Shown here piece by piece: positions 2,426 through 58,954 of a stretch of DNA of 64,000 nucleotides (position 1 is the stretch's first letter; every line of letters begins with the position of its first letter). This stretch comes from Onthophagus taurus (taxonomy: Eukaryota > Arthropoda > Insecta > Coleoptera > Scarabaeidae). Below the pieces are notes generated by a model that saw only the letters and a list, made by a program, of their open reading frames with translations, had not been told where the DNA came from and made no database searches. The stretch covers positions 9,245,501 to 9,309,500 of the forward strand of contig NC_091966.1 of NCBI RefSeq assembly GCF_036711975.1, written 5' to 3'. A program made the translations under genes and the position numbers.

Positions 2426-5248
2426 GTAAGTATTTTTGCATTTTTTCGTACATCACCATTTATTAAGATTAAAAACATTTCCATACGCGATTTACATATT
2501 TTTCCTCAGCGAGACGAGTTAGGGTTCTTATTATGTATGTATTTCAAGTAGCATCATATATCTTTTTAAAATACACTGTAATTTATCTACTAAGTTAAAA
2601 GTGCATAAAAAAGGAACATTTTTATAGTTTTTATAGTATAACAATTTTTTTAATGACTTAGTTTTTTAAACTAAAATTAATTTAAGTTAAGCGATACAAT
2701 TTTAGATTTCATTTTATGCAGGCGCCAAGAAATGACATTCCGAGAATTAAGTCTGGCTACTTATTATCAAAAAAAATCAGATATGAATGTTATCAAAAGA
2801 GAAATAAACATAGTTAAACAATGAAACTAAATAGTGTTACTTGAAGTCTTCGCGTACTTTTTAAAACATTTTTTCCACACAGGACTCAAGTTTTGCTTTA
2901 AATAGAAATTTCTTTTAATATGAGTTTGATGTTCACAACTATCAGTATCTTCTTTTACAAGCACTGATTACATTTTGATTTATTTCCTGAATGAATCAGT
3001 GACATGATCTTATCATGTGATCTTTCATCAGTAAGAGATGAAGTCATACTTTTATATCTCACTACTCATTGAATATCTAAAAGATGGATGAATTGTTCTT
3101 AGGCAATTTTTCCAAAGTTTTAGCAGTTACAAGCAATTTTTGTTGTATACACCATTTATGAACCGCATTTTCTAAACATTTCTGGCTGCTCATCCCATTG
3201 CTGAACCTTCATTCGCAGAGGGTTTTTCCGCTCTTATTAGTCCTGACCTTATCTTCCATTGACATTGGATATCGAAATCATGCACAGGGTTGCTTAGCCT
3301 TCCGTGGTTCCCCAGCTTGGAGGTAAGACTCGGATGAGTAAGAAATATGCGATTTAGAATGAATGTGTTCTAAGAGATTTCGCAAAGTATACTCTCAAAA
3401 TTACAAACATTCACAGATATGTCTGCTGACGTACAGTAGTGTTCTGCTGATGTACAGTATGAAGGTTCTCATACACCCAATAGGGATGGTTGTAGTGATT
3501 GTAACTTCCTTGTTGATTGGAATGCGCTTTATTAATAAACTTCATAGAAAAAGTCAGCATTGTGGTAAATATCTAGTAATAACCCTGTGCAAAAATTTAC
3601 TAGCATAAGATCATCTTCGGAATGCCGCATTTGAAAATGCTGTAGAGGATTGAGTGTGACGCTTATATCTTGATAATAAACTATGTATACCAAAAACTGG
3701 CAAAATCATGAAGTAATGAACTAAATACTGAAGATATTTAGATCAGGAAATGATACTGACATTTAGTTTATCCATTAATGAACGAATTTTGTATGTTTTG
3801 TCGTTTTGAACCAAACATTTTTGAGAAGAGTATAATATATGATCCCATTTAAGAGATCCAGATATTTATCAAAATCATTCCATCTGCACAGACTGTCGTC
3901 CATGTCATCTCTCAATGTTATTCCTCACTTTCATTGATATCGTCGGTAACATATCTCATTATCGTCCATAATATTTTTTCTTATGGTCATCTATTGATCA
4001 GTTATATATATTGAAGCACATAATTTCTAACAACTTCATTCTTAACCACCCTTAACATCGTGTCTGGTTTCCTGGCAACATTTCTTAAATTCTATAATAA
4101 TTATACTTAATATTTTTCAAAATTCGTTATTAACTACCATCAATGTTATCCCTAGCGTCTCAACATCATCTTCTTATCTTACTCGACATCATCCATGACA
4201 TTTTGCAACATCTAAAGATCGTGTTTACCATCTCTATCTTCGTCCCTATCATTACCTAATGATGCAACATAGTAGTATAAGATATGTTGCATCGCTTTTG
4301 ACAACTCCTTTCTGACCATTTCTGACATCTCTAAGTGCACAATTCTGTCCTCTTTAACATTTCGTATCTAACAACAATACATATTTAACAACAGCATTTG
4401 TCTCTAACATCCCTCATAATCATTCTTACTATTTCTCACAGCTGTCTCTGTCATTTGATAATATTGTATTGTCATTCATATATTGTTTTATTAAAATCAT
4501 TCATCCCACTGCAAATCGTGGCTGTCCTCCTACAATATTTCCCTACTTTTCTTTAACATCGTTCCTAAAAGCTATCATATAGTAGTTAACTGTTCTAATC
4601 ATTATCACTATTTCCACAGTATGACGTTACTGATGTGTATTAGTATCGCATCTAACTTTCCTTAAAATTGTCTCCATGTATTCTCAATTACACATCTCTC
4701 ATTAATACAAGGAACCAGTGGTATTGAACAGTAATAAGTCAGGACCATAAGCAGATTTTCAATGATATAGATATTAAAATTATTTATTATTCTTATTCAA
4801 GAAGCGTTTCCTATCAAAACCTTAGAGTTACACAAAGATTAGGTACTAGACTTAAATTACATCAATTAATGTCAGTATGGGGGAAGCTTCAAATAGGTGA
4901 GTTGATTATTTGTTTTAAGGAAAAGTGCACAATTGTAGAAACAAACATATTATAATAAAAACCACTTGTATCGAAATTACTAAGAACATAAGTTTTCGAT
5001 GTGTGATGATTGTAAAATTATGCCTAATAAAAACAACGAAGCATTTTGATCACTGATGATGTACATTCTAGAAAATAATATAGTATTTACTCTTCAAGTA
5101 TCGGAACGTTATTTCTAGACACCTGTATGTAAGTTGAAAACACTTTTTGGGGTTTCAGTTTCAGGAAGTGTTACTTTGTTCGTAAAGTTTTAATTTTTTA
5201 TAGTTCCTAAGTAAGTTTTTACATTGAACGATCTTTTTTCTGTTACAG
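2426..5248 (+). other. Rbp6 intron
   Basis: An intron between two phase-1 exons. It is AT-rich without a credible gene. About 3200-3660 has a somewhat more complex composition and may be an old transposon scrap, but no family could be named. The distal part holds the pyrimidine-rich repeat listed separately. Confidence 0.6.
3890..4690 (+). repeat. Diverged ACATC/TCTAACAT-type low-complexity tract
   Basis: The + strand is C/T-rich and keeps returning to words such as AACATC, CATCATC, TCTAACA and CATTTC at irregular spacing, broken by unrelated bases. It looks like a heavily diverged minisatellite. It lies inside the Rbp6 intron. Confidence 0.45.
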
Positions 5249-5332
5249 GTTTCCCCGCAGCAGCTTATGCTGCTTACGCGGCTGGAAGAGGTTACTCGGG
5301 CTACCCTAGTTTCGGACTCCCCTATCCCACAG
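5249..5332 (+). CDS. Rbp6: Rbp6 84-nt exon encoding the GFPAAAYAAYAAGRGY segment
   Basis: The exon follows TTTTTTCTGTTACAG and ends before donor GTAATG at 5333. In phase 1 it reads GFPAAAYAAYAAGRG, then YSGYPSFGLPYPT. GFPAAAYxxxAA matches the Ala/Tyr-rich region after the RRMs in Musashi proteins. The Musashi family binds UAG-containing RNA and controls translation of target mRNAs; this part is low-complexity tail rather than RNA-binding domain. Both ends are phase 1 and the length is a multiple of three. If the donor is not used, the frame continues to 5442. Confidence 0.88.
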
Positions 5333-5442
5333 GTAATGCATTGGCCAGTTTGCACCATCACCACCCGCTACCGTTACTCCCTTACCCACTCGAACACTTG
5401 GGGGTGTATGGGGGTTCGGGCCTACATGCCATGCCCCTGTGA
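5333..5442 (+). CDS. Rbp6: Read-through extension of the 84-nt exon (possible alternative Rbp6 C-terminus)
   Basis: When the donor at 5333 is ignored, the frame stays open for 36 codons to TGA at 5440-5442. The product is His-, Leu-, Pro- and Gly-rich (ASLHHHHPLPLLPYPLEHLG) and ends HAMPL. The DNA stays GC-rich up to the stop and beyond it to about 5700. This fits an intron-retained or alternative last exon, but could be chance in a GC-rich stretch. Confidence 0.45.
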
Positions 5443-8400
5443 ACGCAAACCGAAGTTAAGCTCAAATCTCCGCTTAAAGTTCGCGTCTCGGCTGGTAAAA
5501 CGACCCGTTTTGTCACCTTTTTCCGGTTTTATCCGAATGAAGATCGACAAACCGGCGTCGTCGTCGTTGGTCGAAATCCACGCGTCCGTCTTTTTTCTCC
5601 GTCTATTCCTCCCCGATTTTCCGCGATCCCGAGAAGCGTACATTAGGAACAAAGTAATTTCTGTAATTGTATTGCCATAATGAAATGACACCAGTAGCGA
5701 ACACACGCAAACAACAGTATATCAAAAACGAATCGATGCGCTCGCTCCGTCTCTCCGATTCTATCTCTCTTTCTCTTTTAAACTAGATAGGGTAACTAAA
5801 ACTAAACTAAACTAACTGTGTAGGCCATGATTAATCGCTAGGTGTAGTTTTGCTAGAGCGTAGGGTTATTGTTAGGACATAGGGTAACTTTATGAGGAGT
5901 TTAGTGGATGCCCTCTCTCTCTCTTCCCCCTTCCTGGACGTGTAAAGCCACTTAAGGTCTCCTATGGTACAAGTTCTTGGTGACCGAATTTGTTCTAGTA
6001 CTTATGAGAATTGAATGAATTCGGTTTACAATATACATTTTGTACCTTTATAATTCTGGACTCCCATCCTGTTTGTCTAAGTATCGCAATTTAATCCCCT
6101 CGTAATCATAAAACCGACACTTTTGAGTTGAAATGCGCACGCCTCATCTCCTTTTAGTCTCGATTTCAAAAGATAAATACATAATAATAATAAACGAAAA
6201 TGAATATTCCGAGTACAAAATGCATTGTCCATCCAAAACAAAGTTTCGATTAACCAAAGCGAAATAAATAAAAGTGAATTCAAGGGACGAATTTCTCGAG
6301 AGATTTCTCAAAATAAAAGGAAATTTTAAGCAATTATCGCTCATCAATTATCGAGAACGTTTTTCGTTCTCGGCGCTAAAATAATTAATTAAATGAAAAA
6401 AAGGGAAAAGATATTGTTATTGTTATAATTCGTTATTTTTCTATTGCCACAAAGGGATTGTACCTTATACGGTTTGTTAATAATACGATACGCTTGTTCC
6501 AAAATGTATAATTTTTCACATCAGCACCTCGATGCCTCTCAACGAAACGGGCGATGGCCGTCCCAGTTTCCATCCAGAACGCACACCGTCGCGGTTGGAC
6601 GCGAAAAGAAAAGATCCGGTAACGAGCAGAAAATCCGGAAGGCCTATCGTTCACAGGCGCATGGTCGTGGGATGATAGGTGATTTAGTGTGTTCTTGACG
6701 TCCGAACTAGGAATAGACCCAAACGCGAGGTGTTCCCTCTAAACACTCTGTTGTTGCGTCTTTCTCTAAACTCTCTACCCGTTACTATTTTGTATGGCGG
6801 CGGTACACAAGTAGTGGGCAGACGACTACAAAACATGAAAACTAACAAAAAAATCGAAGTAGTTGCAAAGATTTTTGTAGTCGCCTTCCTTCACGAAAAC
6901 ATTCCACTGTTGCCCAACTCTGCACCTGCAAATATTCGACTGTTGTCACTTTGAGCATATGAATAAAGGATTTCGCAGTTCTATTATTCTTCACACACAC
7001 AGTATCCTTTATTGATTTGCTTATCTCAACGAAAAGTCTCTATCAATTAATTAATTATCTATAATTGTGTGAATGAAATAATCAAATCGACTAAACATTC
7101 ACATGAGATAAAGATAAAAAAGTACTATAAAAACGCTATTTCGTAAGAGTTCTTTTTTGTATGTGAGAGTGAATGATTGTATAAGCATATCCGTCACTAA
7201 GCATAAGTGCGCTCGATGTTATACATATATTTTAAAACTTGAGACTGTTGCTTGTTGCGAGACTCCGCGAAAACTCGAAGACTACGATTTATGCGACGAT
7301 TAAGCGAATAAGCAATGTGTAAAAAGAAAATAAAAAAATGTACACAAAGAGAACCCCGCTGAAGTTTTTCTATTCAAACAAAAAAGGGTTACAAAAACAA
7401 TTTTTTAGCTAGATTACCACTATTGTTATCTATTTAGACATTCACGAACTTACGTCTGATGTTATAAACCACATATTTCTTATTTTAAAGCACATTTAAG
7501 CACGTAATCGGACGATTTACTCGAATTTGGGGCCAAAAGGCGGTTCCAGTAATGAATCGGTGGCGTAATTAAAATAGCCAACGACACGAAATGAATCGTC
7601 TCAATTAGTACCGGGATAGAAGGGCCGAATGCTTCGGCCCGAAACTAATAGGGCGGCGTACGTGTACGTTCCGGGAAATAATTGCTCCATTAATTGGGTC
7701 GCGACGAAGAATTTCTAATAGAAACGTCATGTGCCGGTTGAAATCTGCCTCAAATTAAGGTTAAAGTTTCGATAATTCAAAGATCTTTTGTCAGACATGG
7801 GTTCGTTTAATGTCCACAAATCGATTCTCTGGTAGTGTAAAAAAAAGTTTAGGAAAACGTTGTGTGTATCAAGTGTCGAAACTGTACCAGACAAGTGGAT
7901 CCGCGCCTGGACCGTCTCTTCAATTGTTGAGGGGCGAGTAATTATTAGAACAATACCTATTTTTACTATTCATAGAAGTCGTGTGATCAGATATTTTTTA
8001 TATTAGGTTGTAATAACAGATTTGATGTTTTAACATAGATTGTAGTCAAAACTAACCAAATAGATAACAAATAATCATTATTCTGTAGGGGTAGAATATA
8101 ATTTGTGTGTATCTTGTACGATTATCCCCATCTAATCAACAGTTTAGTTTCCGATTACTGCGTTCCATTATGAGAATTCGTTGAATTGATATATCGGCAA
8201 TCGAAAGCAATGAAGTTAATGAGACGTTGGTTCGGTCGGCGATATCAAAGAGAAATAAACTCATTCGTGTACCGAAATACTTCATTAGTTATGCAAATTA
8301 TCCGCAACTATAAATTCTAATACCGCTTTAGATCAATACTACCAATCATAACTGTAAATACCAATAACCCGCGTATTACAACCCCGCTGAGTTACATGTC

Positions 8401-20060: not shown

Positions 20061-21244
20061 GAGGTCCCAGGTGAAAAATCGATTTGTTGATTATGAATAT
20101 CATCTTGAAACTTTTCTCAGTTATTAATAAAAGCATTTTCTTTTCAATGATAATGTCCGTTTTGAAATAACTCGTTTCGTTTTTGAGATATACGTTTTTG
20201 AAGACAATCCAAATTTCTTATAACTATTATGGCTTGCAAGACTAACATTAAAAATTCGTGAAAATCGATTGGCTGGCATATGATCATGAAACTTTTCTCA
20301 ATGGTTAATAAAAGCTACTTCTTTTCAATGATAAGGTTTTGAAATAACTCGTTTTGCCTTGAAGATATACATTTTTGAACACAACCGTAATTTGTGATAA
20401 TTTCATATACCTATTGCAGGATTAACTTTATAAATTCCTGAAAAATCGATTTTTTACCATATCATCATGAAACTTTTCTCTGTTATTAATGAAAACATAT
20501 TCTTTTCAATAATAATGTTCGTTTTGAAATAATTCGTTTTTCCTTTCAGAAATAAATTTTTGAACATAATCGTAATGTGTGATAAGTTCATATTTTGCAG
20601 GATTAACTTTGAAAATTCCTGAAAAATCGATTTATTGAAATATCATCGTGAAACTGTGCTCAGTTGTTAATAAAAGCATCTTCTTTTCAATGATAACGGC
20701 AGTTTTGAAATAGCTCATTTTGTCTTTCAGATATAAATAATTAAACACAATCGTAATTTATGATAAATTTATATATTGAAGAATTAACTTGAAAAATTCC
20801 TGAAAAATAGATTTGTTGGAATATCATCATCGTTTATCAGTTATTAATAAAAGCATCTTTTTTTCAATGATAATGTCCGTTTTGAAATAACTCGTGTTGC
20901 CTTTCAGATATAAATTATTGAACACAATCGTAATTTGCAAGGATTATAAGTTTATGGTAAGTTTATGTTTTGCAGGATTAACTTTAAAATTTCCTGAAAA
21001 ATCGATTTATTGAAATATGATAATGAATCTTTAGTCAGTTATCAACAAAAACATCTATTTTTCAATGATTATATCAGTTTTAAGACAACTCTTTTAATTT
21101 TTGAGACATATTTGAACACAGTTGAAATTTCTAATAATTTCTATATTATACAGGATCAACTTTAAAAACTCGTAACAAATTGATTTGTTGGAATATCATC
21201 ACGATAATTTTATCACTAATCAATAAAAACATGTATTTTATAAT
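20060..21244 (+). repeat. Satellite-like tandem array, about 180-190 bp units
   Basis: The phrase CCTGAAAAATCGATTTxTTG recurs near 20,073, 20,262, 20,447, 20,623, 20,805, 20,995 and, weakly, 21,175. Each copy is followed by GAAACTTTTCTCAGTTATTA, AATAAAAGCATCTTCTTTTC, AATGATAATGTCCGTTTTGA and GCAGGATTAACTTT. That is about 6.5 diverged copies of one monomer. The array resumes at 24,131 after the inserted element. Confidence 0.8.
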
Positions 21245-21253
21245 GATGATGTG
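21245..21253. repeat. 9-bp target site duplication, left copy
   Basis: GATGATGTG directly precedes the left inverted arm and matches the right copy at 24122-24130 exactly. The bases outside differ (T on the left, C on the right). It replaces the satellite word GATAATGTC. Confidence 0.85.
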
Positions 21254-22252
21254 AGCTCTGTGAACCTGGAACCCGAGTTTACGATATTTTGGTTTTATCA
21301 GTACCATTCGATAGAGAATCATTTGTACTCGTTTGTACCACCTTTAATAACGTTTGTACCTTAGAACCTAAAGAGATAACAAAAATTTGAAAAATTGCCG
21401 GAACCCCACTTTTTGATATTCTAATTTTATTAATACCCTTCGGTAGAGAATCGTTTGTACCCGTTTGTACCACTTTCGATTTCGTTTGTATCTCAACCGG
21501 TTCCAAAATACGGCGATTTTTTGATTTTTCAGAATACCGCTGAAAGTGTGTATCTCCGTTATTAATAGAGATATCGCAAAACGGTCGATGGAATTCGATA
21601 GAGAATCGTTTGTACTACTTTTGTTTTCGCTTGTACCTCAACCGATTCCAAAATATAACGATTTTTTGATTTTTCAGAATACCGCTGAAAGTGTGTATCT
21701 CCATTATTAATAGAAATATCACAAAACGGTCGATGGAATTCGATAGAGAATCGTTTGTACCCGTTTGTACCACTTTCTATTTCGTTTGTATCTCAACCGG
21801 TTCCAAAATACGGCGATTTTTTGATTTTTCAGAATACCGCTGAAAGTGTGTATCTCCGTTATTAATAGAGATATCGCAAAACGGTCGATGGAATTCGATA
21901 GAGAATCGTTTGTACCACGTTTGTTTTCGCTTGTACCTCAACCGATTCCAAAATACAGCGATTTTTTGATTTTTCAGCATACAGCTGAAAGTGTGTATCT
22001 CCGTTATTAATAGAGATATCGCAAAACGGTCGATGGAATTCGATAGAGAATCGTTTGTACCCCTTTGTACCACTTTTGTTTTCGTTTGTACCTCAACCGA
22101 TTCCAAAATACAGTGATTTTCTGATTTTTCAGCATACAGCTGAAAGTGTGTATCTTCGTTAGTAATAGAGATGTCGCAAAACGGTCGATGGAATTCGATA
22201 GAGAATCGTTTGTACCCGTTTGTACCACTTTTGTTTTCGTTTGTACCTCAAC
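21254..22252. repeat. Left arm: alternating 145/155-bp tandem repeats
   Basis: The word TGAAAGTGTGTATCTCCG starts at 21541, 21686, 21841, 21986 and (as TATCTTCG) 22141. Spacings are 145, 155, 145 and 155, an exact 300-bp higher-order period. The difference is an extra CCCGTTTGTAC segment in alternate units. The arm breaks off after ACCTCAACC at 22,252. Confidence 0.88.
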
Positions 22253-22689
22253 CTCTGGACACCAATATGGATTAGGTCGATCGCCGATCAATTTACAATC
22301 ACATTCTACATTTTTCAAAAATGTACTTAAACTCCCTGATGTTGCAAATTCAGACTTTTCTAAGTCAATTTATAATATATTCACCTCCAATATTTTTTAC
22401 GTCCACATTTATTTCGCTTTGTATTGTAATATTAACATCTACTTGGTATATGCTTTTCGAACTCCGATTTAATCCCCTGAATTAATCGTTTGTGGGCCCC
22501 ATAATAACCTTCATTTAGATTTACATCTTCAGTTTCTGAAAACGCTACAGTTAAGATATCACGTAACAGGGATTCAAATACTTTGAAGGTAGTACATTTT
22601 GCAAGAAGTCCAATACGCCGGAGAAAGAAATGTTTGACACGTGTAGAAGTATTACAGAACTTCCTTACATTTCCAGTGAGTGACAAGGA

Positions 22690-23620
22690 AATAAGAATTG
22701 GAAGAGACGAGGAAAAAAGCTAATAAAATATGTAGAAGAAAGAAACGACAATATTTGAATCATCAAGTAGAAGAGATGGAAAGGAATTTTAAAGATAATA
22801 ACCCTACAAATGCATACAAGTACATAAAACAACTGAAAGGGGGTTTTAAACCCCATACCACATCGATGAGAGACAAAACTCGACATATAATCGCAGATCT
22901 GGCAACAAGAACAAGAGCAACAACAACCAGAACAAAAGCAACAACAGACGAACCGTCCTCTGATAGAACCACCTACATTACAGGAAGTCGAGCTAGCTCT
23001 GCCAGCCCAAAAGAACAACAAATCGTCTGGATGTGATGGAAAAGCTATGGGCCTATATAATACGGCCTGGGAACAAGAACAACTGTATACTTCAATAGTT
23101 AACATATGGAAGGAAGAAAAGATCCCCAGGACTGAAAAAGGAGCATTATCATATCATCACATCATTGGTGATTATCAAGCAGGTTTCTGGCCAGGCAGAT
23201 CCACTATTTAACTAACTATTGAACCACTGACCAGCTATTTAACGTTACAGGGGAATTCGACATTGATGTAGACTAGATTGTCGTAGACTTTCGGCAAGCC
23301 TATAACTCCATAAAAAGAGATAGGATATATGACATTATGAACGAATTCGGATTTTATTCCCATAAAATTAACCAGATCAGTGAAAACTATAATGACGGAT
23401 ACCACAGCATATTTAAAAACATAGAATCAGATGGCCAACCCATTTGAAATAACACAAGGATTGAAACGAGGTGATGTTTCGTTCTCTTCAATATCGCATT
23501 GGAATATGTCATAAGAAAATGTCGATCAATTCTTCAAACATCTTAAATAATAAGTATGCTGACGACATCAACATAATGGAAAGAGCAACAACGACAGTGA
23601 AGGAAATATTTATCGTATGC
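22690..23620 (+). pseudogene. Decayed non-LTR reverse transcriptase inside the Foldback element
   Basis: Frames broken by stops encode, in order, RKKANKICRRKKRQYLNHQV and NNPTNAYKYIKQLKGGFKPH (the linker before the RT), then DYQAGFWPGRSTI, DFRQAYNSIKRDRIYDIMNE and YADDINIM (the RT catalytic loop, about 23,550). The order matches non-LTR ORF2 proteins, with large internal losses. It is unrelated to the mobility of the host element and may be a captured or inserted passenger. Confidence 0.75.
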
Positions 23621-23645
23621 TCGAAAAGTGGGTGTATCAATCATC

Positions 23646-24121
23646 GGGGATACTAACTTGGAAACAGTGATATTTCAGCGATATTCTGAAGAATCAAAAA
23701 ATCGCTGTATTTTGGAATCGGTTGAAGTACAAATAAAAACAAAAGTGGTACAATCGGGTACAAACGATTCTCTATCAAATTCCATCGACCGTTTTGCAAT
23801 ATCTGTATTAATAACGGAGATACACACTTTCAGCGGTATTATGAAAAATCAAAAAATCGCCGTATTTTGGAACCGGTTGAGATACAAACGAAATCGAAAG
23901 TGGTACAAATGGTTCTCTATCAAATTCCATCGACCGTATTGCGATATCTGTATTAATAACGGAGATACACACTTTCAGCGGTATAATGAAAAATCAAAAA
24001 ATCGTTGTTTTTGGAATCGCTTGAGGTACAAACGAATACAAAAGTGGTACAAACAATTCTCTATCGAATGGTACTAATAAAACCAAAATATCGTAAACTA
24101 GGGTTCCAGGTTCACAGAGCT
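23646..24121. repeat. Right arm: inverted tandem repeats of the Foldback element
   Basis: Reverse-complement copies of the left-arm unit. The word CACTTTCA ends at 23832 and 23977 (145 apart), and a diverged TATTTCAGCG copy ends 155 bp earlier. The same 145/155 alternation as in the left arm is therefore kept with about 2.5 units. Confidence 0.85.
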
Positions 24122-24130
24122 GATGATGTG
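24122..24130. repeat. 9-bp target site duplication, right copy
   Basis: GATGATGTG, identical to 21245-21253. The following CGTTTCGGCACAACTC continues the satellite monomer (consensus CGTTTTGAAATAACTC). Confidence 0.85.
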
Positions 24131-24790
24131 CGTTTCGGCACAACTCTTTCAGTTTTTGAGATACCTATACACTATTGAACACCATCGAAGTTAATAAATA
24201 CTGAAATTTTTTTGTAGCACTCCAAAAAAGCTGTATATATTAATTGAATTACAATTTTAAGTACATTTCGTGAAGTAACTTCTGCAAAAAAATGGTTAAT
24301 TAATAGTTTTGCGACAATGTTCTCAATGTAAACATTACGAATTCAGAAAAATTAATGATATTTTCATTGTGTGTCCCATAATAATCACGCCATTAAGTAA
24401 ACTAATATTTTGAGTATATACTGGAAGTATTTAACGTAACAATTACTGATAATTCATAAATATAACAGCAACCGTTCTCAAGGTGTATCATAACATCTAT
24501 TATTCCAACTAAATTATAATTATGTGTACATTTCTGAATTCCTTGAAGTATTTTACGAAGAAACGTGTTCTTAATTAAAAATTGCAACACTAGCCGTTCC
24601 CACCGTGTGAAAGATCTTTTGGTAAAAACACAAAATTTGAGAACATCATTGTTCTGCACCTCGTAACATCTACTACACAAACAAAATTATACTTATGTGT
24701 AAATTTTTGAATTCTTCGAAATATTTTACGTGAAAAAGTACTTTTAATGAAAGGTTGTATCACAAGACAAGTTTTCACGCCGCTACAATT
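24131..24790. repeat. End of the satellite array and a second tandem repeat
   Basis: 24,131-24,215 completes the interrupted satellite monomer (TTTTTGAGATACCTATACAC, TTGAACACCATCGAAG). After it, a different unit appears at least twice: TTATGTGTACATTTCTGAAT near 24,513 and TTATGTGTAAATTTTTGAAT near 24,692, each followed by GAAxTATTTTACG. The spacing is about 180 bp. Confidence 0.55.
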
Positions 24791-45908: not shown

Positions 45909-46487
45909 ATGGCTTTCAAGGTAATGAATAAAAGTAAACGATAAATTAAAATAATAATTATAAATTGTTCTTAGTTCACCATCTTAGCTGCTTTAATCGC
46001 AGTTTCTTCCGCTGGAGTTCTTCCTGCTCCATACCCAGCTCATTATGCCGCCCCAGTATACGCAGCCCCCATAGCTAAAGTAGCAGCTCCAGTATATGCT
46101 AAAGCCGTAGCTCCAGAACCATACGATGCTCATCCACAATACAACTTTAATTACGATGTTCATGACGATCATACTGGAGACGTGAAAAGCCAACAAGAAG
46201 TTCGTGATGGAGATGTAGTTAAAGGAGCTTACTCTTTCATCGAATCTGATGGATCTAGACGTATTGTTGAATACACTTCCGACCCAGAACACGGATTCAA
46301 CGCTGTTGTTCAAAGACAAGAAGGTGCCGCTCATCCAACTGGCCCAGCTGCCGCTCCAGCTTACGCTAAAGTAGCCGCTCCAATTTATTCGGCACCAATT
46401 GCTAAAGTTGCTGCGCCAGTTTATGCTGCACCTGTAGCTAAAGTAGCTGCTTATCCCGGTTATGCATCCCATGGATATTACCATTAA
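45909..46487 (+). CDS. RR-2 cuticle protein 1
   Basis: Two coding exons, 45909-45920 (MAFK) and 45975-46487, with a GT-AG intron of 54 bp; 174 residues. The signal peptide is [17 protein letters not shown], cut before GVLP, and the intron splits it after codon 4. Residues 19-50 are [19 protein letters not shown]-type repeats. Residues about 58-118 form the RR-2 chitin-binding domain, with [41 protein letters not shown] and HGFNAVV. More AAPxY/AKVAAP repeats and the end GYYH follow. The protein should be secreted by epidermal cells and bind chitin in the cuticle. AATAAA lies at 46547-46552. It is the first of seven paralogues; the exact subfamily name is not known. Confidence 0.95.
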
Positions 46488-46552
46488 TAGGAAGTTATAG
46501 CATAGCATTTGAAATTATGAATGTGTTATTTATTTATTTAATTAGAAATAAA

Positions 46553-48060
46553 AGTAAATCAATTGCATTACATTTTATTGGTTTTTTTATCAATTTCATT
46601 CAGAGAAATTTGTCATTTTTGTATACACAAAGCATATAAAGAAAAAGTATTGTAATCGAGCAAACATGCTTAACTTTTATCGACAATCTTATAAAACCTC
46701 ACAATCAGTGGTTAATGGGAATTACATAAGAATAGTATCTCAAGCAGTTTCTTTCTGTCACCCCAAGAAGTCGAAAATGATTCTTTTACAAATACGTACA
46801 ATTCTACTGCGAAAATCGGTTTATTTGTGCATATCGTCGATTATCTGCCTAATACTTCAGTGGCAAAAGTGACAATAAGGGTGTTCTGGCTACATATAAG
46901 TCGGTAGATTCGCCTAAAGAACAATTTTAAGCTGTGCTCGCCGGTGCCAATAATGGTTGCTTCCAAAGCTTCGTTGAAATGCCCTGAAGATAACTTCAAG
47001 CCTTACTGAGCTCTACGTTAACCATCTCTATAACTTGAGACTTGTTAACAACTCGATCATACCAACAAAATGACGAGACAGTAATTTCTATTTTAATGGT
47101 AGTAAGTTTCAATGACAGTAATTTTCCAAATCCCTTTGGAAAATCCTTACCCCGCTTGATGTAGCCAGAATGTAATCAAAGCGGGATATACAAGAGGCCT
47201 AAATGATGATAAATGGAATGTATATGTCCTAGATGTCAATTACAAATAATTAAAATTGAATTTTATCAAAAATCAATTTTCTGTTGAAATTCGTAATTAT
47301 TAAATTTGTTAACTTTACGCTTATTATTGTTGGAAGGGTTTGTCATTAAAGTTGATTTGATTACGAATACAAGAACGCATGAAACTACACATTTAGCAAA
47401 TTAATAAAAAACTTTATAAACCTTTTTGATGTCCATTACAATCAGTAAGTTAAAAAAGTGAATCATTTTACTTTTGTAATTATAAGCTTTATTAAAATTA
47501 CTACAGATTAACTATGTAGACTAATTGTTTACACAGAGAAGATCATAAAATATTTAATCTTGTTTTAATGCTACGAGAACAAATTTTTAATTTCCTTTAA
47601 TCTGACTACATTTTTTTATACCTTAAGCTTAAACATCAATTGTTAGTAGTTGGTATCAGAAAGCACAAAACAGTATTTTAAAAAATCAATAATAATTGAG
47701 TAATAAAATATCGTAATAAGAAGTATTTTAAAATAATTTAATGGAATTCGACGCATTCAAAGTTTACAATAAAACTTTAAAGAGATCGTATCTCAAGAAC
47801 TAATGGAGATATAGTGTACTGAATAGCATTTTAAAGCTAATTTAATGCAGTTTTAATACATCAAATATAAATATTAGATTTTAATCTGGTTACCATAAAT
47901 TACTGCTTTATAAATTTACATATAGAAATATGCTTATTGTTGTATTTTCAGTTTTAATGATTAAATTAAATAATATCATTAAGTTTTTTATTGATATTAA
48001 TCAATGATATAATTACACAATTCATTACGAAAGTACAACCTAAAATAAATTTAGAGCGTA
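46553..48060. repeat. Intergenic copy A of a tandem duplication
   Basis: Non-coding. It matches 48,842-50,560 over most of its length, for example CGCCGGTGCCAATAATGGTT near 46,940 against 49,390, and TATACAAGAGGCCTAAATGA near 47,187 against 49,690. No independent gene is present. Confidence 0.8.
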
Positions 48061-48100
48061 AAATGTTGCATCACTAAGGCGTGTACTCGCTGAATTTGAA

Positions 48101-48108
48101 TATATAAA
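48101..48108 (+). promoter_or_regulatory. TATA box of cuticle gene 2
   Basis: TATATAAA follows GGCGTGTACTCGCTGAATTT, 79 bp before the ATG. The CCTAGACC block is not recognisable upstream of this gene. Confidence 0.75.
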
Positions 48109-48179
48109 CCCAATCCTTCCCAACTACAACATACACAAACCGACACTCACCCGAACAACATCAACGAACATATCATAAA

Positions 48180-48776
48180 ATGGCTTTTAAGGTAATAACT
48201 TAAAATACAAATGAACAAATTAGAACATATTCATTTCAAAAATCAAAACAATTCTATTCGCAGTTCACCATTTTAGCTGCTTTAATCGCAGTCTCTTCGG
48301 CTGGAGTTCTTCCTGCTGCGTACCCAGCTCATTATGGTGCTCCAGTTTACGCCGCCCCAATAGCTAAAGTAGCAGCACCAGTATACGCTAAAGCTGTAGC
48401 TCCAGAACCATACGATGCTCATCCACAATACAATTTCAACTATGATGTTCATGATGCCCACACTGGAGATGTTAAAAGCCAACAAGAAGTTCGCGATGGT
48501 GATGTAGTTAAAGGAGCTTATTCTTTCATCGAATCTGATGGATCTAGACGTGTTGTTGAATATACTTCCGATCCAGAACACGGATTCAACGCTGTTGTTC
48601 AGAGACAAGAAGGGGCTGCCCATCCAACTGGTCCAGCTGCTGCTCCAGCTTATGCTAAAGTAGCCGCTCCAATTTATTCTGCACCAATTGCTAAAGTTGC
48701 TGCCCCAGTTTATGCTGCACCTGTAGCTAAAGTAGCTGCTTATCCCGGTTATGCATCCCACGGATACTACCATTAA
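48180..48776 (+). CDS. RR-2 cuticle protein 2
   Basis: Exons 48180-48191 (MAFK) and 48264-48776, with a 72-bp intron; 174 residues. The layout matches gene 1: signal peptide, AAPVY repeats, RR-2 domain and AKVAAP repeats ending ASHGYYH. Its first two-thirds (promoter, intron, [18 protein letters not shown]) match gene 3. Its last third ([25 protein letters not shown], the stop and the 3' UTR AGGAAGTTATAG) matches gene 1 almost base for base, so it is a mosaic. AATAAA lies at 48836-48841. Predicted role: secreted chitin-binding structural cuticle protein. Confidence 0.94.
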
Positions 48777-48841
48777 TAGGAAGTTATAGTATAGCATTTG
48801 AAATTATGAATTTGTTATTTATTTATTTAATTAGAAATAAA

Positions 48842-50560
48842 AATAAATCAATTGCATTATATTTTATTGGTTTTTTATCAATTCCATTCACATAAACTCA
48901 TGTGGGATAGATGTGTATTTTTATATGGCACGTATACATTAATATTATTGTTTAACTTATAGTTCCATTTTATAAATGATAAAAAATGATTCTTTTCATA
49001 CAAATGCATACAATTCTACTATGAAAAATGGATTATTTGTACATAAGATTTAACTTAAAATAAAGCCACCTTATTCGCTCAAAAGCCACAAATACAGACG
49101 ATAACAACAATCTCTGCTGATTGGTCCAGCATTTCCAACACAGCCAATCGGGCTAATTAGTAGCTATTAAATTTGTCGTGAGTCTTATTAATTAATTGTG
49201 ATAAACAGGGTAAGAGTTTAGCATAAAATAGAGCAATGATCAGCCTAGAGTTAGCTGATCATTGATTATCGATTTACATTTGATGAGATAGATACATATA
49301 ATCATGTAATACTTTAGTGGAAAAAGTAACAATGAGGAATCATATAAGTTGACAGGATCGTTACAAGAACAGTCTTAAGCCCTGGTCGCCGGTGCCAATA
49401 ATGGTTGCTTCAAAAGCTTCGTTAAAATACCCTGGAGATAATAATAAGACTCATTACTAGACTCTATGACAACCACCTCTATAACATGAGACTTGTTAAC
49501 AACTCTATAACATCAAGAAAGTTGAGAGATAGTAATTCCTATTTCAATGTCCTGCTCTATATAACTTAAGATTTACGTACATCAGAGATAAATGGCCGAA
49601 CATTAATTGAACCTGGGGTACGTTTCTGAGTTGCCCTTTGGAAAATCCTTATCCTGCTTAATATAACCGGAATTTAATCAAACCGCGATATACAAGAGGC
49701 CTAAATGATGATAAATACAACGTCCGCAACCTAGATGTCAATTACGAATAATTAAAACTGAATTTTATCAAAAATCAATTTTCTATTGAGATCAGTAATT
49801 ATTAAATTTGCCAACTTTACGCTTGTTATTGTTGGACAGAGATGTCATTAAAGCTGATTTTTATTACGAATACAAGAACGCATAAAACTACACATCTAAA
49901 TTAATAAAAAAAATTTATAAACCTTTTTGATGTCCATTACAATCAGTATGTGAAAAAGAGAACCATTTTACTTTTGTAATTAAAAGCTTTATTGATTACT
50001 ACAAATTAACTATGTAGATTAATTGCTTGCACAGAGAAGATAATAAAATATTTAATCTTGTTTTAATGCCACGAGAACAAATTTTTAATTTCCTCTAAGT
50101 TGACCACATTTTTCGTATAACTTAAGCTTAAACATGAATAATTAGTATCAGAAAGGACAAAACAATATTTTAAAAAACAAATAATAATTGAGTAATAAAA
50201 TATCGCAATAAGAAGTATTTCAAAACAATATAATGGATATGTACAGTTTTATAATAAAACTTTAAAAAGATCGTATCTCAAGAACTAATGGAGATATAGT
50301 ACTATATATCATTTTAAAGGTAATTTAATGTAGTTTTAATTCATGAAATATAAATATTAGATTTTGATCTGGTTACCATAAATTACTACTTTATAAATTT
50401 ACAAATAGAAATATGCTTATTAGTTTATTTTCAAATCTATTAATTAAATTAAATAACAATCTCATTAAATTTTTTAATGATATTAATCAATGATATAATT
50501 ACACAATTCATTACGAAAGTACAACCTTAAATAAATTTAGAGCGTAAACTGTTGCATCAC
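48842..50560. repeat. Intergenic copy B of the tandem duplication
   Basis: Second copy of the 46,553-48,060 intergenic DNA with small insertions and deletions. It reaches the promoter of gene 3, which differs from that of gene 2 by only a few bases (CTGAATTTGAATATATAAAC in both). Confidence 0.8.
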
Positions 50561-50586
50561 CAAGGCGTGTGCTCGCTGAATTTGAA

Positions 50587-50594
50587 TATATAAA
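50587..50594 (+). promoter_or_regulatory. TATA box of cuticle gene 3
   Basis: TATATAAA, preceded by GGCGTGTGCTCGCTGAATTT, 79 bp before the ATG. Confidence 0.75.
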
Positions 50595-50665
50595 CCCAAT
50601 CCTTCCCAACTACATCATACACAAACCGACACTCACCCGAACAACAGCAACGAACATTTCATAAA

Positions 50666-51248
50666 ATGGCTTTTAAGGTAATAACTTAATACACATCAGC
50701 AAATGATAACATATTTATTTCAAAAATCAAAACAATTCTATTTGCAGTTCACCATTTTAGCTGCTTTAATCGCAGTGTCTTCCGCCGGAGTTCTTCCTGG
50801 TGCGTACCCAGCTCATTATGCTGCCCCAGTTTACGCCGCCCCAATAGCTAAAGTAGCAGCACCAGTATACGCTAAAGCTGTAGCTCCAGAACCATACGAT
50901 GCTCATCCACAATACAATTTCAACTATGATGTTCATGATGCCCACACTGGAGATGTTAAAAGCCAACAAGAAGTTCGCGATGGTGATGTAGTTAAAGGAG
51001 CTTACTCTTTCATCGAGTCTGACGGATCTAGACGTGTTGTTGAATACACTTCTGACCCACACAACGGATTCAACGCTGTTGTCCGTAGAGAAGAAGGTGC
51101 TGCCCATCCTACTGGTCCAGCTGCCGCTCCAGCTTATGCTAAAGTAGCAGCACCAGTTTATGCTAAAGTTGCTGCTCCAGTCTATGCTGCCCCCATTGCT
51201 AAAGTTGCTGCTTACCCCGGTTATGCATCCCATGGATATTACCATTAA
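50666..51248 (+). CDS. RR-2 cuticle protein 3
   Basis: Exons 50666-50677 (MAFK) and 50748-51248, with a 70-bp intron; 170 residues. The intron is open in frame, so a naive reading adds a false N-terminus [11 protein letters not shown]; the MAFK exon with its GT-AG junctions is preferred because all seven genes share it. The RR-2 domain keeps the more typical [16 protein letters not shown], where the other genes have PEHGFNAVV. The C-terminal repeats are [26 protein letters not shown] lies at 51297-51302. Predicted role: secreted chitin-binding cuticle protein. Confidence 0.95.
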
Positions 51249-51302
51249 TAAGATCGTAGTATAGAATTTGATATTGTGAATTATTATTATTTATTTAATA
51301 AA

Positions 51303-52770
51303 TATTAAAAATAAATTTATTGCGTTATAAATTACCAATACAAGCCCAGCAAAAGATTATTCTCAAAAGTTCATCTAGTTCAATTGCTATCGGGATGCAA
51401 TGATTTTATAGAAAATTTAATAATTTTCAGTTTGATATTTCGGCACAATTTCATTTGCTCACTTGAAATCAAATCACGTAATTGGTACCAATTTCATCTA
51501 TCAGTGCATATTACTTTACTAATTTAAGGATTTCCTTGGATTTCTGGTGCTGCGTATAAGCGAATGAATTATTCCCACTGGAGTTGGGATGGAAAAGCAT
51601 TGAAAAGTTCGTAAACAGGCGAAATTCAAAGTATTTAGTTATTTCAAATTCTTTATGAATGCAATATATTATCACCATGGCGTCACAGTCTTTATATTCA
51701 AATGATATTTGATATCTACAACGATGTTTCTATGTCAGATGTAATACATAAAGGTCTCGGTGATTTTTGGAGTTGCATTCAACCTGCTGAATGTTTGTCC
51801 AATAAACAACATTATTTAGCATCAGCTATTACTATAAGTGTTGAAAAATAAATCTCTTCGCTTCAGATTACCTCATGGTTTGGATGAGGTCAAAAGCTCA
51901 TCAGAGCATTTCACGTGAAAGACTGAAACGAATGAACGGACAGATTGAGTTCGGGAATCAGTCGCACTTAACTTTGGGGGTCCCTCAAGTAGCCTATTAC
52001 CCGATTCCTAACCAACCATGAACGATTCACAAAATGTGTTTACATTATTGGAACAGCTGATAGCACAGGGCGACAGTACACCAAAATACCTTCTTTTTCT
52101 ACTGAAAAAGATTACGATAGGCGAGACTTTAACTGCTTACGGGACTCGAGCCCATAGAATGGGCATGAAACCCTAGTTGTCGTCAGAATGTTCATTGTTA
52201 AGAAAATTTTAAAATGAAATCTACACATGAAATGGAATCGATGGCGAACTTCAACGGAAATGTTTCAAAAGTATATAGAGCTTCCTTTAGTTTCATAAGA
52301 TCGTGGACTTGCGAATGTCCATTATGTCCATAATTATTGGAAGAAGAAATGGTGTCTACACTTTTTACTGTTCATTCAGACAGAAAATATGTCAATCTGA
52401 ATACGAAGTAAATATCAGCACTAAAAAAAATTATCGACTTAACACTGTTCGAATCGTTTTAATTATTTAATAGTTTATTTCAATGTAGTTTCATTATAGT
52501 GATATAAATTTAAAATATTTCATTTAATTTAAAAGCATTCAAAATTTAAAAAATCAATAGGTATAATAATATTTTAGCGAGAAATGTTTAGTCGAACTGA
52601 TATTCGTTGCTAAACTATTTATTTGATAACTATCGATTTTAATAAAATTTCTTAGTATATCATTTCAAGTTAGATATTATTTTAGGTATTGAAAATACCA
52701 ACATAACGTTATATTTTTTGTTACCCAATTTTGAAACAATCACACAATTTTTTATGTAAGTATACATTCT
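51303..52770. other. Intergenic DNA between cuticle genes 3 and 4
   Basis: AT-rich. It is not similar to the duplicated intergenic DNA on its left. 51,840-52,200 has a more complex composition but no recognisable protein. Confidence 0.5.
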
Positions 52771-52803
52771 AGCCTAGACCCCTTAAATAAAGAAAGAAAA
52801 AGT
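52771..52803 (+). promoter_or_regulatory. Shared upstream block (gene 4)
   Basis: AGCCTAGACCCCTTAAATAA, then AGAAAGAAAAAGT. It is the same motif as upstream of gene 1, here 54 bp before the TATA box. Confidence 0.6.
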
Positions 52804-52857
52804 AAGATTAGAGTGTCTACCTTGGGAGGAGAGGGGCGTGTACTCGCCGAATTTGGA

Positions 52858-52865
52858 TATATAAT
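52858..52865 (+). promoter_or_regulatory. TATA box of cuticle gene 4
   Basis: TATATAAT, preceded by GGCGTGTACTCGCCGAATTT, 79 bp before the ATG. Confidence 0.7.
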
Positions 52866-52936
52866 CCCAAACCTTCACAGTTAAATCATTCTCAAACCAA
52901 CAACCACGAGAACAACATCAATCACCTTCCAATAAA

Positions 52937-53505
52937 ATGGCTTTCAAGGTAACAAATTGAAATTTCAACGAATCATGTATTTACCAAACATATTATATTT
53001 TCAGTTCACCATATTAGCTGCTTTAATTGCAGTCTCTTCCGCCGGAGTTCTCCCAGCTGCATACCCAGCTCATTATGCCGCCCCAGTTTACGCAGCCCCC
53101 ATAGCCAAAGTAGCAGCACCAGTATATGCTAAAGCCGTAGCTCCAGAACCATACGATGCTCATCCACAATACAACTTCAATTACGATGTTCATGACGATC
53201 ATACTGGAGATGTGAAAAGCCAACAAGAAGTTCGTGATGGAGATGTTGTTAAAGGATCTTACTCTTTCATCGAATCTGATGGTGCTAGACGTGTTGTTGA
53301 GTACACTTCTGACCCCGAACACGGATTCAACGCTGTAGTCCACAGGGAAGAAGGAGCTGCTCACCCAACTGGACCCGCAGCCGCTCCAGCTTATGGTAAA
53401 GTAGCAGCACCAGTTTATGCTAAAGTTGCTGCTCCAGTCTATGCTGCTCCCGTAGCTAAAGTTGCTGCTTATCCCGGATATTCATCTCATGGTTATTATC
53501 ATTAA
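52937..53505 (+). CDS. RR-2 cuticle protein 4
   Basis: Exons 52937-52948 (MAFK) and 53005-53505, with a 56-bp intron; 170 residues. As in gene 3, the intron is open and would falsely extend the frame upstream. Signal peptide to [23 protein letters not shown] repeats; RR-2 domain with [39 protein letters not shown] and [13 protein letters not shown]-terminal [20 protein letters not shown] and the end SSHGYYH. AATAAA lies at 53560-53565. It is the last + strand gene of the cluster; the next genes face it tail to tail. Confidence 0.95.
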
Positions 53506-53759
53506 TAAGATTGTAGTCTAAAATTTGAATTCGTAAATGTGTTATTTATTTATTTAATTAATAAAAATAAATTTGTTGCATTATATTTCGGTCGTTTCAA
53601 TTCTATTCAAGTTAAGATAATATAATATCATTGAAGAAATACATAATCGTCTTCAAATGATGAAAATAAAAGTATTAAAGTGCTAATAAATAGTTTCATG
53701 AACGAAGAAGTAGTGTTCTAAGAAATATCTGTATTGGTGAAGTAGCGAAATTACGACTT

Positions 53760-54660
53760 ACGCTTCAAAGCACGTATTGACAAAATGGATGAGGAATAGT
53801 ACACCAGATCCAGCAGTACCCTGTTTGCTGAGAAAGATCTGAATGAGGTTACGCCTAAGATTGTGCTAACAAGTGTGTTGGAAAACAAAGAAACCTTACT
53901 TTTAATCAATGCTTCAATATCTTTCATACTCTTGGAAACTCTCAGTCGTGTTACTGATAGAAAAGTCGAGGATCGATCTGGATCTTAGACAGAAATAGTT
54001 GAGAAGAGACTGATTAATGAAGGCTTTTTTAGCAAAGGCAAATTGACCATGGCCAAAGGCATGGAGAAAAGTGCAAGGCGTTGTAGAAAAAATTACAGAA
54101 GTAATACTTATATAGCCAAGAATGATGACTGAATGTATACTTAAATATTGAGAACGCGTTTAACTCTGCTTCGTGAGAGGTGATTATTCTAGAGTTGGGA
54201 AAAGTGAGGGTGATTTGCTATATCCCATGCTGAGATACCTGGGCGTCTATCTCAATAATGGTACGAAAATCACGTCATATGTTAGAGATACAACCGAAAC
54301 AGCAACTAAAATGACCAACAATCTCCTTAGAGTAAGATGCTAATGCGGTCCTTATATAAGCGGAAGTAATCTTCTGGCATTTCAATCTAATCAACGATAA
54401 AATAATCGCTTTCTAGAAATACGCTTAGTTTCCTCAAAAGTAAACTTGTTGTAAGCGTCACATCAGCACACTTTAGAATATTAAGGAATACTGTTAAGAC
54501 AATTACTGGCAATGAAGGGAAAAAAGAAGGAGATTAACGAGTGTTTATAGGAAGGTGGCAAATGAGATGAAATGAATCGACAGGATAGACAAAGTTTCTT
54601 ATACCAAACGTGAATTACTTCACAACGCAAGGTTTGAGTGGTAATGTAAGGTAAATTCAG
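53760..54660 (+). pseudogene. R1-like non-LTR RT relic
   Basis: The frame at 54,144 reads IENAFNSAS and a stop (R1-clade RT motif NAFNSA). 54,209 onward reads DLLYPMLRYLGVYLNNGTKI, then TSYVRDTTETATKMTNNLLR, matching the YLGVxLDxxxxFxxHV region after the RT core. The upstream part (53,760-54,120) is too decayed to place. It sits between the two oppositely oriented arms of the cuticle cluster. Confidence 0.6.
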
Positions 54661-55121
54661 TGTGTTTTTCATTTAAACTTTGCGATTATCATCAAAGATT
54701 TATTATTAATATTGAAGTCAATTGCTTATTTAATCGTTTTATATTGAATAATTATTATTTTATATTTAACGTTGAAAATGTCAGTGTTAAGTTACCTTTG
54801 TAATAATTAAAATTGTTAAACAACTAGTGTAACACGTTAAAATTGATGTATTCAATAAAATATTTAATAAATATTTTCAATGTTAATACAGAAAATACTG
54901 TATTTTGTTAGTTTAAACTGATAATCGAATATAAAATACCTTGAAAGAGAATTTATAAAAACTATTTTATAAAAACGATTTTTTTGATTTTGGATAGGTT
55001 ATAATACTTTCAAGAAATGTTTATAAAAAAAATAAATGAATGCAATTAATTTTATTCATAAAATAATCAAATAAATAATACTCAAAACATACTAAATAAG
55101 AAATATAAAATATTCAGGTAA
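54661..55121. other. AT-rich intergenic DNA
   Basis: No feature was seen apart from AATAAA-like words that could serve the 3' end of gene 5 on the minus strand. Confidence 0.5.
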
Positions 55122-55827
55122 TTAATGATAATATCCTCTAGATGTGTAACTTGGATATGCAGCTACTTTAGCAACTGGAACTGGTGCGGCTTTAGCTGCA
55201 TAGACAGGGGCAGCAACTTTGGCGATTGGAGCTGCATAGACTGGAGCACTAATTTTGGCAACCGGAGCACCATAAACTGGAGCTGCAACTTTGGCAATTG
55301 GAGCAGCATAAACCGGAGCTGCAACTTTGGCAAATGGAGCAGCTACTTTAGCATAAGCTGGAGCAGCAGCAGGGCCAGTTGGATGAGCAGCACCTTCTTC
55401 TCTGCGGACAACAGCGTTAAATCCGTGTTCCGGGTCAGAGGTATATTCAACAACACGTCTTGCTCCATCAGATTCGATGAAAGAATAGAATCCTTTTACT
55501 ACGTCCCCATCGCGTTCCTCCTGTTGGCTTTTAACGTCCCCGGTGTGTTCGTCGTGAATGTCATAATTGAAACTGTAATGAGGATGAGGATCGTATGGTT
55601 CTGGAGCAACAGTTTTAGAATAAACAGGTGCTACTACTTTGGCTACAGGTGCAGAATATACCGGTGCGGGATAAGGACTATGATAAGGGGCGGGATATGC
55701 AACTGGAACATTTCCAGCGGCACAGACGGCGATGAAAACAGCCAAAATTACGATCTAGAAAAAATTTATATATAATTCAATTAATTAGAGATATATTTAA
55801 AATATAGTTTAATACCTTAATAGCCAT
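55122..55827 (-). CDS. RR-2 cuticle protein 5 (longest member)
   Basis: Minus-strand exons 55816-55827 (MAIK) and 55122-55754, with a 61-bp intron; 214 residues. The signal peptide [17 protein letters not shown] differs from the MAFKFTILAAL form of genes 1-4 and 6. The N-terminal repeat region is [20 protein letters not shown]. The RR-2 domain (about 62-122) has [30 protein letters not shown] and [12 protein letters not shown]. The C-terminus is expanded by about 40 residues, with [20 protein letters not shown] and [11 protein letters not shown], and ends SRGYYH. It is the most diverged gene of the set. Predicted role: secreted chitin-binding cuticle protein. Confidence 0.95.
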
Positions 55828-55915
55828 GTTTAATTGTTGTTATGAATTTGAACTGTAAAGATGTTGTTCGTTAAAACTTAGCGAATTGACTATGAATTGC
55901 ATTCGGCGATTTCGG

Positions 55916-55923
55916 TTTATATA
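55916..55923 (-). promoter_or_regulatory. TATA box of cuticle gene 5
   Basis: TATATAAA on the minus strand, about 89 bp before the ATG. The GTGTACTCGC block is not recognisable here. Confidence 0.7.
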
Positions 55924-55980
55924 TCATTTCTACCTCCCTATTAATTATCGTTGGACAATGTTAATAATTTGCGTAATACC

Positions 55981-56011
55981 TTTCTTTTTCACCTAAGGGT
56001 CTAGGTTAGGC
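55981..56011 (-). promoter_or_regulatory. Shared upstream block (gene 5)
   Basis: The minus strand reads GCCTAACCTAGACCCTTAGG, then TGAAAAAGAAA. Its distance to the TATA box is 57 bp. Confidence 0.6.
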
Positions 56012-56469
56012 TCTTACATGAAGTATCTATTGTGCAAGTACGTTACTCTACGCGGTGTTCTAAATATTGTTGAATTACGCAACTGTAATTCCACATTTCT
56101 CTATGGCTATGTCATTCAAATTCTATAAAAAAAATCGTTAATAATAACCGGGTAATCAAATGAGTTCCGTTCAATAAAAGATATTGACAGTTATCTTAAT
56201 TAACACATTATCTCATAATTGTAGATCTTATTAGGTGGTTACAAAATATTTTTAATTTTGTTATAAAAGAATTTCGAAACTAAAATTTTATTACAAGAAG
56301 CATTGATATAAAAAGGTGCCTTATTTATTATTAAACTTCGTAAAGTAATTACGATAATTAAAACATTTTAGCACAACAATTAAATAATTTTATAATAAAA
56401 TTAGTAAAAGAGTAAAAAACAGATTTAGTAATAAATCTTGCAATGCTTATTCACTAATGAATATTTGCG
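56012..56469. other. AT-rich intergenic DNA
   Basis: Nothing recognisable. Confidence 0.5.
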
Positions 56470-57830: not shown

Positions 57831-58288
57831 CTTCCAAGATAATTAAGAGAAACGAAACGGATGCGAATATTAAAAAATATACATATCTGTTTTCATATTG
57901 CCTGTTAGGCTTTCACTGAACTTGGTATTCAAATCAAAAAAGATTTTTGAAAAGAACTGTTTTAGGTTCAGGTATTTATATAGAAAAAGAAATAAATAAA
58001 TAAAAGGTAAATATATAAAATATAATGATAATAGAGTCTATAATCACAAAAGAATTACATTTATAGTCCAAAAGTTAAAAAAAAAATACAAATGCATCTT
58101 CTGTGTCGTCATTGTTGATGCAGACAACAATGAAATTATAACATCTTAATTACTCAAGAGTAAGTTATTATCTCTTATTATTAGAAGAAAAATGTTTAAA
58201 AGAAAAACAAAAATATAATGCAATACATTCTTTTATTTCAAAATAAATAAATAACATTCACAATTTCAAATTCTACACTATAATTTTA
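57831..58288. other. AT-rich intergenic DNA and 3' UTR of gene 6
   Basis: A minus-strand AATAAA-type signal lies around 58,240-58,250, just past the stop codon of gene 6. Nothing else was seen. Confidence 0.5.
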
Positions 58289-58864: not shown

Positions 58865-58946
58865 TTTAACTTTAATTTGTTGATAATGTCTTGATGTTGT
58901 TCTTGTAAGTGTTGGTTTGAGTATACTTCATCTTCGGCGGTTCGAG

Positions 58947-58954
58947 TTTATATA
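58947..58954 (-). promoter_or_regulatory. TATA box of cuticle gene 6
   Basis: TATATAAA on the minus strand, preceded by GGTGTGTACTCGCCAAATTT as in genes 1-4. Confidence 0.75.

Follow-up and report, generated by a model that had tools for sequence, protein, structure and literature searches.

A non-autonomous Foldback-type DNA transposon with tandem-repeat arms inserted in a satellite-like array of Onthophagus taurus

In the window, the 64,000-nucleotide stretch of Onthophagus taurus DNA analysed here, a satellite-like array is interrupted by a sequence with inverted, internally repeated ends. The locus raises the questions of whether this sequence is a transposon of the Foldback type, as an earlier note had claimed, to which superfamily it belongs, and which enzyme moves it. 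The interval 21254-24121 is a genuine non-autonomous Foldback-type DNA transposon. On the evidence of its ends, of 9-bp duplications at many unrelated sites, of a restored empty site, of variable arms and of transposase-like pieces in related copies, we read it, with a probability of roughly 0.86, as a member of a non-autonomous Foldback-type family that would receive its transposase in trans and insert at staggered 9-bp cuts. The family, with its long internally repeated inverted arms, is a new one of a kind already known. No description of it was found in a literature search judged by titles and the beginnings of abstracts; by title, none of the papers listed for foldback transposons in beetles concerns a beetle Foldback family, and a search for non-autonomous Mutator TIR elements with tandem repeats in Coleoptera found nothing.

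Structure of the element and its insertion site

The Foldback-type element is 2868 bp long (21254-24121) and is flanked by identical copies of GATGATGTG at 21245-21253 and 24122-24130, an exact match, as had been reported for these borders. The outer inverted repeat measures 75 nt with 95% complementarity (21254-21328 / 24047-24121), in agreement with the claim of inverted ends of at least 70 bp with few differences. Longer inverted matches, the longest of 340 nt at 90%, continue across the tandem arms, which in element coordinates occupy positions 1-1000 on the left and 2420-2868 on the right. The inverted tandem repeats noted inward of the ends were recovered as units of 145/155 bp in inverted orientation, five on the left and two on the right (core-motif scan of the window copy). 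In the same scan the spacing of the left-arm units alternates between 145 and 155 bp, and Tandem Repeats Finder gave periods of 145, 155 and 300 for the window copy. The element had also been called complete, which holds for its ends and not for its core, where a transposase remnant and reverse-transcriptase-like cargo are found. The features of the locus are listed below.

20097..21253, no strand assigned: satellite-like array with a 181-bp period and about 6 copies, target and left flank (Tandem Repeats Finder; monomer alignment)
21245..21253, + strand: left target-site duplication GATGATGTG (exact match to 24122-24130)
21254..21361, + strand: left terminal domain, starting with AGCTCTGTGAACCTGGAACC, an FB4-like end (75-nt inverted repeat with the right end; FB4 comparison)
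Element positions 68, 78 and 99: GTTTGTACC triplet of the left terminal domain, the first with two mismatches
21400..22253, + strand: left arm, with another terminal-like block, at 80% to the first, and five 145/155-bp units; higher-order period of 300 bp
22254..22687, - strand: remnant of the family transposase gene, antisense (90% identity to L025 5325-5758)
22690..23650, + strand: presumed reverse-transcriptase-like fragment, broken (common to L011 and L033; dispersed in the genome)
23673..24121, - strand: right arm, with two tandem units and the right terminal domain, whose end is GGTTCCAGGTTCACAGAGCT
24122..24130, + strand: right target-site duplication GATGATGTG (exact match to the left copy)
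24131..24187, no strand assigned: interrupted monomer resumes (joined-flank alignment gap-free at the junction)

The flanking array has a period of 181 bp, with 6.2 copies and 75% matches over 20097-21232 (Tandem Repeats Finder). The two flanks were joined with the 9 bp counted once and were then aligned to the 181-bp array. The joined flanks aligned without a gap at the junction and with a score of 145; the left flank by itself scored 122, and 200 control joins with a shuffled right flank reached 131 at best. A satellite monomer is thus split by the element and resumes beyond it, as had been proposed. Past the right duplication about 57 bases align to the satellite, so that the array ends soon afterwards and the insertion lies near the array end.

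Elsewhere in the window (46365-60791) several tandem repeats of 24 and 36 bp were recorded by Tandem Repeats Finder; judged by eye, their units resemble cuticular proteins rich in alanine, proline, valine and tyrosine. These repeats and the FB-like ends fit, by eye, an insect host. The telomere pattern TCAGG x6 gave 0 matches, a result of no weight since simple repeats are skipped in that kind of DNA search.

Copies of the family elsewhere in the genome

The genome searched comprises 291 Mb in 33 contigs. The first 207 bases of the element gave at least 93 matches (40 of 113 first-look candidates scored) and a 300-bp stretch of the arm at least 147 (40 of 88 candidates scored). When the positions of both searches were grouped at 9 kb, terminal or arm sequence was present at no fewer than 42 separate places. 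Forty loci of 6-10 kb each were selected among the hits of the terminal search and of a protein search. Both family ends were located by BLAST in 21 of them, which together with the window copy gives 22 two-ended copies; the 19 loci with one end or none within 6-10 kb were left out of the duplication count.

A perfect 9-bp duplication flanks 15 of the 22 two-ended copies, and agreement reaches at least 8 of 9 positions in 19, with L003, L010, L015 and L016 at 8/9. The three other copies have poor duplications (L034, 7/9; L006, 5/9; L027, 3/9). Mismatched pairings of left and right flanks never reached 8 of 9 (0/462; maximum 6), and the duplicated sequence varies between copies. In the window copy all positions match at a length of 9 bp (9/9), against 0-3 matches at 7, 8, 10 and 11 bp. 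The occurrence of the same terminus with mostly 9-bp duplications in other genomic copies, which the earlier note had proposed as a check, was thereby confirmed. Duplications of 7, 8, 10 or 11 bp were rejected, with at most 6 matches in every copy at those lengths, and a chance inverted repeat was rejected by the duplication table of the 22 copies.

The number of tandem units per strand ranges from 0 to 15, and the two strands of one copy are often unequal (21 copies, core-motif scan); the scan tolerates 6 mismatches in a 26-base core, decayed units may escape it, and the count for L002 includes an inner block. Unequal exchange between units, or slippage, would change the length of the arms, and unequal unit counts between strands are expected from either. 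Homogenised arms within an element were not supported: the mean identity of the outer 200 bp was 0.843 within a copy and 0.838 between copies (21 copies, 840 comparisons), although the loss of terminal segments confounds this comparison.

The consensus of 84 units (144-165 bp, from 21 copies; only units of 140-168 bp were accepted by the script) contains three copies of GTTTGTACC at spacings of 10 and 21 bp. This layout recurs in the terminal domain at positions 68, 78 and 99, with two mismatches in the first. Exact GTTTGTACC occurs 15 times in the element and 0 times elsewhere in the window. Its conservation is slightly higher than that of the rest of the unit (0.965 vs 0.941), and because of this small margin a role in binding is a prediction. 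In Galileo, the available part of PMC3688188 places one binding site some 70 bp inward of the end and a further two in the repetitive arms. On this layout the same use is proposed for the GTTTGTACC triplets, which by analogy are predicted to be multiple transposase-binding sites.

The end consensus of the family, from 44 ends, is AGCTCTGTGAACCTGGAACC. It agrees with the Drosophila melanogaster FB4 terminus, as printed in the available part of PMC9682801, at 13 of 20 positions (AGCTC...GAA.CTGG...C; shuffle P 0.00025), and 16 of the 127,960 20-mers of the window do equally well. The match is found in register only, with a mean of 12.4 at offset 0 and at most 5.8 at offsets 1-6 in either direction. 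The Foldback signature that had been recognised in the long tandem-repeat arms and 9-bp duplications is borne out by the copies and strengthened by this terminal match.

Two family copies, L025 (G000:C11:16454) and L031 (C11:3961214), share an identical left flank. In L025 a 401-bp inverted repeat (99.5%) encloses the element, one repeat arm on each side, and no right arm of the element itself was found within 12.8 kb; the flank of L031 matches the same 401-bp inverted repeat. With this repeat common to both, it seems that another inverted-repeat structure acquired a piece of the family and duplicated it. Within L001, a family copy of 7.9 kb, nested at 4897-5902 and 2828-3526, are mariner-like transposase pieces recognised by eye and a GIY-YIG match, the latter below the cut-off (E 0.0014); the one mariner-like piece scanned gave no Pfam match.

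Composite core and transposase pieces

The left part of the core, a 434-bp antisense piece at 22254-22687, is 90% identical to the inside of L025 and gives a short tblastn match (40%, E 6.5e-6) to residues 374-418 of the transposase-like protein P0001. The right part, 22690-23650, we take to be reverse-transcriptase-like by motifs read by eye, e.g. YADD. The core fragments of the window and the pieces of L011 gave no significant match to Pfam. The whole window core is present in L011 at 93-95%, together with a nested 1.1-kb insert, and most of it in L033 at 85-92%. The junction between the transposase piece and the reverse-transcriptase-like piece is common to the window copy, L011 and L033 (95% and 92% over the spanning stretch), and is documented at three sites whose duplications all differ (GATGATGTG, TATTAATTG and ACTGTTAGT, respectively). 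One junction with three different duplications indicates that the composite core was most likely formed once and later carried along by the ends. The cargo would accordingly have been gained a single time, by an ancestral copy that later reached three sites or more. The nested insert of L011 (about 1873-2975), which is missing from the window copy, has ACACAGGAAAAAA/TTTTTTCCTGTGT as its ends and is bordered by a short duplication.

As to how the cargo entered the core, insertion of an ordinary LINE in a family copy, with trimming afterwards, is somewhat more probable than capture by gap repair. The reverse-transcriptase-like sequence is dispersed through the genome, with 49 matches, some of them within or adjoining family arms, although neither a retrotransposon end nor a separate duplication was noticed at its edges on incidental inspection.

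Sister copies hold larger transposase pieces than the window copy, and these pieces are broken. An open reading frame common to L001 and L002 gave 23 genome matches, among them P0001, a 917-aa open frame at L021:513-3266 (-) (G000:C7:19738500-19745000). L021 has no family end within its 6.5 kb and is a relative, its 917-aa frame being related to the family transposase. P0001 aligns in pieces with L025 over residues 18-664 (28-37%) and with L005, a two-ended copy with a 9/9 duplication, over residues 18-184 (31%) and 200-361 (42%), and it also aligns with pieces of L006, L002, L001 and L023. Transposase pieces lie inside the two-ended copies L005, L001, L002, L003, L006 and L023. No intact transposase was seen within the family, and the gene of L025, its most complete copy, is interrupted by stops and a frameshift. 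The search for a full-length copy encoding a Mutator transposase, suggested earlier, therefore returned transposase pieces in sister copies, none of them intact and none of those scanned matching the MULE model.

In an alignment of four catalytic pieces, D46, D116 and D162-x2-H165 are invariant, and one E is aligned between L021 and L025. Mutator enzymes have a DDE triad with a C/D-x2-H motif. The L005 piece as query gave 44 genome matches, four of which are family pieces at 88-100% identity. Several further matches, at 27-45%, fall in open frames of 917-1436 aa, and those of lower identity had E values of 1e-8 to 1e-4. Judged from these diverged relatives in long open frames, a wider superfamily of transposase relatives probably exists in this genome. 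A PDB sequence search with the catalytic alignment and the C-terminal tail gave nothing significant, and of 4 pattern matches in IMG/VR, 0 were confirmed as related to the 917-aa protein.

The end of the 917-aa frame of L021 contains a Cys box (TCAFDSLAQ) and a His box (GHYTAY...W..YDD), which we take to resemble those of ubiquitin-specific proteases. Both boxes are also present in a 257-aa open frame of L017, a locus with a family arm. The Pfam UCH match was weak in L021 (E 0.069), and L017 and L022 gave no match to that model.

Superfamily, mobilization and comparison with known systems

A duplication within 8-10 bp and long inverted repeats, the structural marks of Mutator elements, are both found in the family. 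The Pfam MULE model (PF10551) gave no match in the family transposase pieces scanned or in the relative L021; since the family gene is broken and diverged, the missing match is weak evidence. A comparison by hhalign with one canonical MULE of the same genome gave a probability of 0.1%, from a shallow alignment (Neff 1.2) that carries little weight. FLYWCH (Phantom) was not matched in the N-terminal pieces, themselves incomplete, nor was THAP (P superfamily / Galileo) in the pieces scanned. With no Mutator domain recognised, the Mutator type assigned in the earlier note rests on the 9-bp duplication, the long arms and the D/D/D-x2-H motif, and in view of the missing MULE match it is likely rather than proven. 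A diverged, NOF-like DDE transposase of the Mutator superfamily is the most likely enzyme.

Elsewhere in the genome PF10551 gave 16 matches, a few of them with open frames of 390-660 aa. The genome thus seems to contain ordinary Mutator elements beside the Foldback family. One of their canonical MULE transposases, and not an NOF-like enzyme of the family's own, might move the family element. The long open frames of a few matches, the broken state of the family's own gene in the copies read and the position of the nearest matches, one some 12 kb from L024 and the other some 18 kb from L002, are in line with this proposal. We nevertheless regard it as unlikely, since family copies hold pieces of one transposase inside their arms, a usual sign that an element encodes its own enzyme, and 0 of the PF10551 matches fall in the examined family loci.

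It is just as improbable that the likeness to Foldback is one of convergence alone, with the family placed in another cut-and-paste superfamily, either P/Galileo-like or a lineage of its own. The duplications of Galileo are shorter than the 9 bp found here, about 7 bp; THAP gave no match in the scanned pieces; the terminus agrees with FB4 in register; and the D-x2-H that follows the second D is in keeping with the Mutator pattern. Convergence would be consistent with the lack of MULE matches in the pieces and with the combination of FB-like arms and a P-type transposase that the available part of PMC3688188 describes for Galileo. An inverted duplication or satellite rearrangement with flanking repeats by chance, suggested by tandem-repeat arms inside a satellite array, has a negligible probability, refuted as it already is by the same ends at 22 two-ended sites, 19 with site-specific 9-bp duplications of at least 8/9, and by the empty site restored on joining the flanks.

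Under the preferred reading of a non-autonomous family member served in trans, transposase from fuller copies would recognise the element ends, excise the element and join it to a staggered 9-bp cut, and repair of the 9-bp gaps would then leave the target duplication. A more specific proposal, that the family is an insect counterpart of FB4 with a resident DDE transposase too diverged for the MULE model and with a ubiquitin-protease-like tail in a relative, is tentative and on balance doubtful. If it were true, the enzymes behind Foldback movement would form a distinct lineage that combines transposase and protease, and their binding target would be a helically phased GTTTGTACC triplet, present in amplified form in the arms. 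The family offers a good handle on the question of what moves Foldback elements, and a multi-copy family with clean 9-bp duplications, unequal arms, a predicted phased triplet and internal transposase pieces would be a testable system.

The arm units of FB4 are short, about 10-31 bp, and those of the family measure about 145/155 bp; because of this difference in unit size the family is not filed as FB4 itself. FB4/NOF of D. melanogaster has long inverted repeats and a 9-10-bp duplication (PMC8277862, available part), and the likeness to it lies in the long inverted repeats, the 9-bp duplication and the terminus, the NOF protein standing outside the comparison. Galileo of Drosophila is alike in its FB-like arms and differs in its P-type THAP transposase (PMC3688188, available part). 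Muta1 and Muta5, MULEs of Aedes aegypti, are alike in 8-9-bp duplications, in subterminal tandem repeats and in many derivative copies with foreign core sequence, and differ in arms of 145-151 bp, units of 12-15 bp and predicted transposases of 504-554 aa, in the portion of PMC5225508 consulted. Tm1 of root-knot nematodes is alike in composite arms, mostly 9-bp duplications and several kinds of core, and differs in units of 13-15 bp and a Phantom-type enzyme with FLYWCH, which had no match in the family (PMC3169594, as far as its available text goes). The available sections of PMC8277862 report no Pack-MULE in 100 animal reference genomes, and the cargo found here, which looks repeat-derived, is therefore no counter-example under the Pack-MULE definition given there. 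Tetris of D. virilis shares foldback arms of long units, its TIR-220 units having a 37-bp stretch in common with the terminal domain, and has 8-10-bp duplications; no coding copy is described in the available part of PMC4079207, and the present family differs from it in the transposase pieces inside its copies. In the case of FB4, the similar end, the architecture and the 9-bp duplication together may be taken as a sign of common descent, that is, of relatedness and not of identity.
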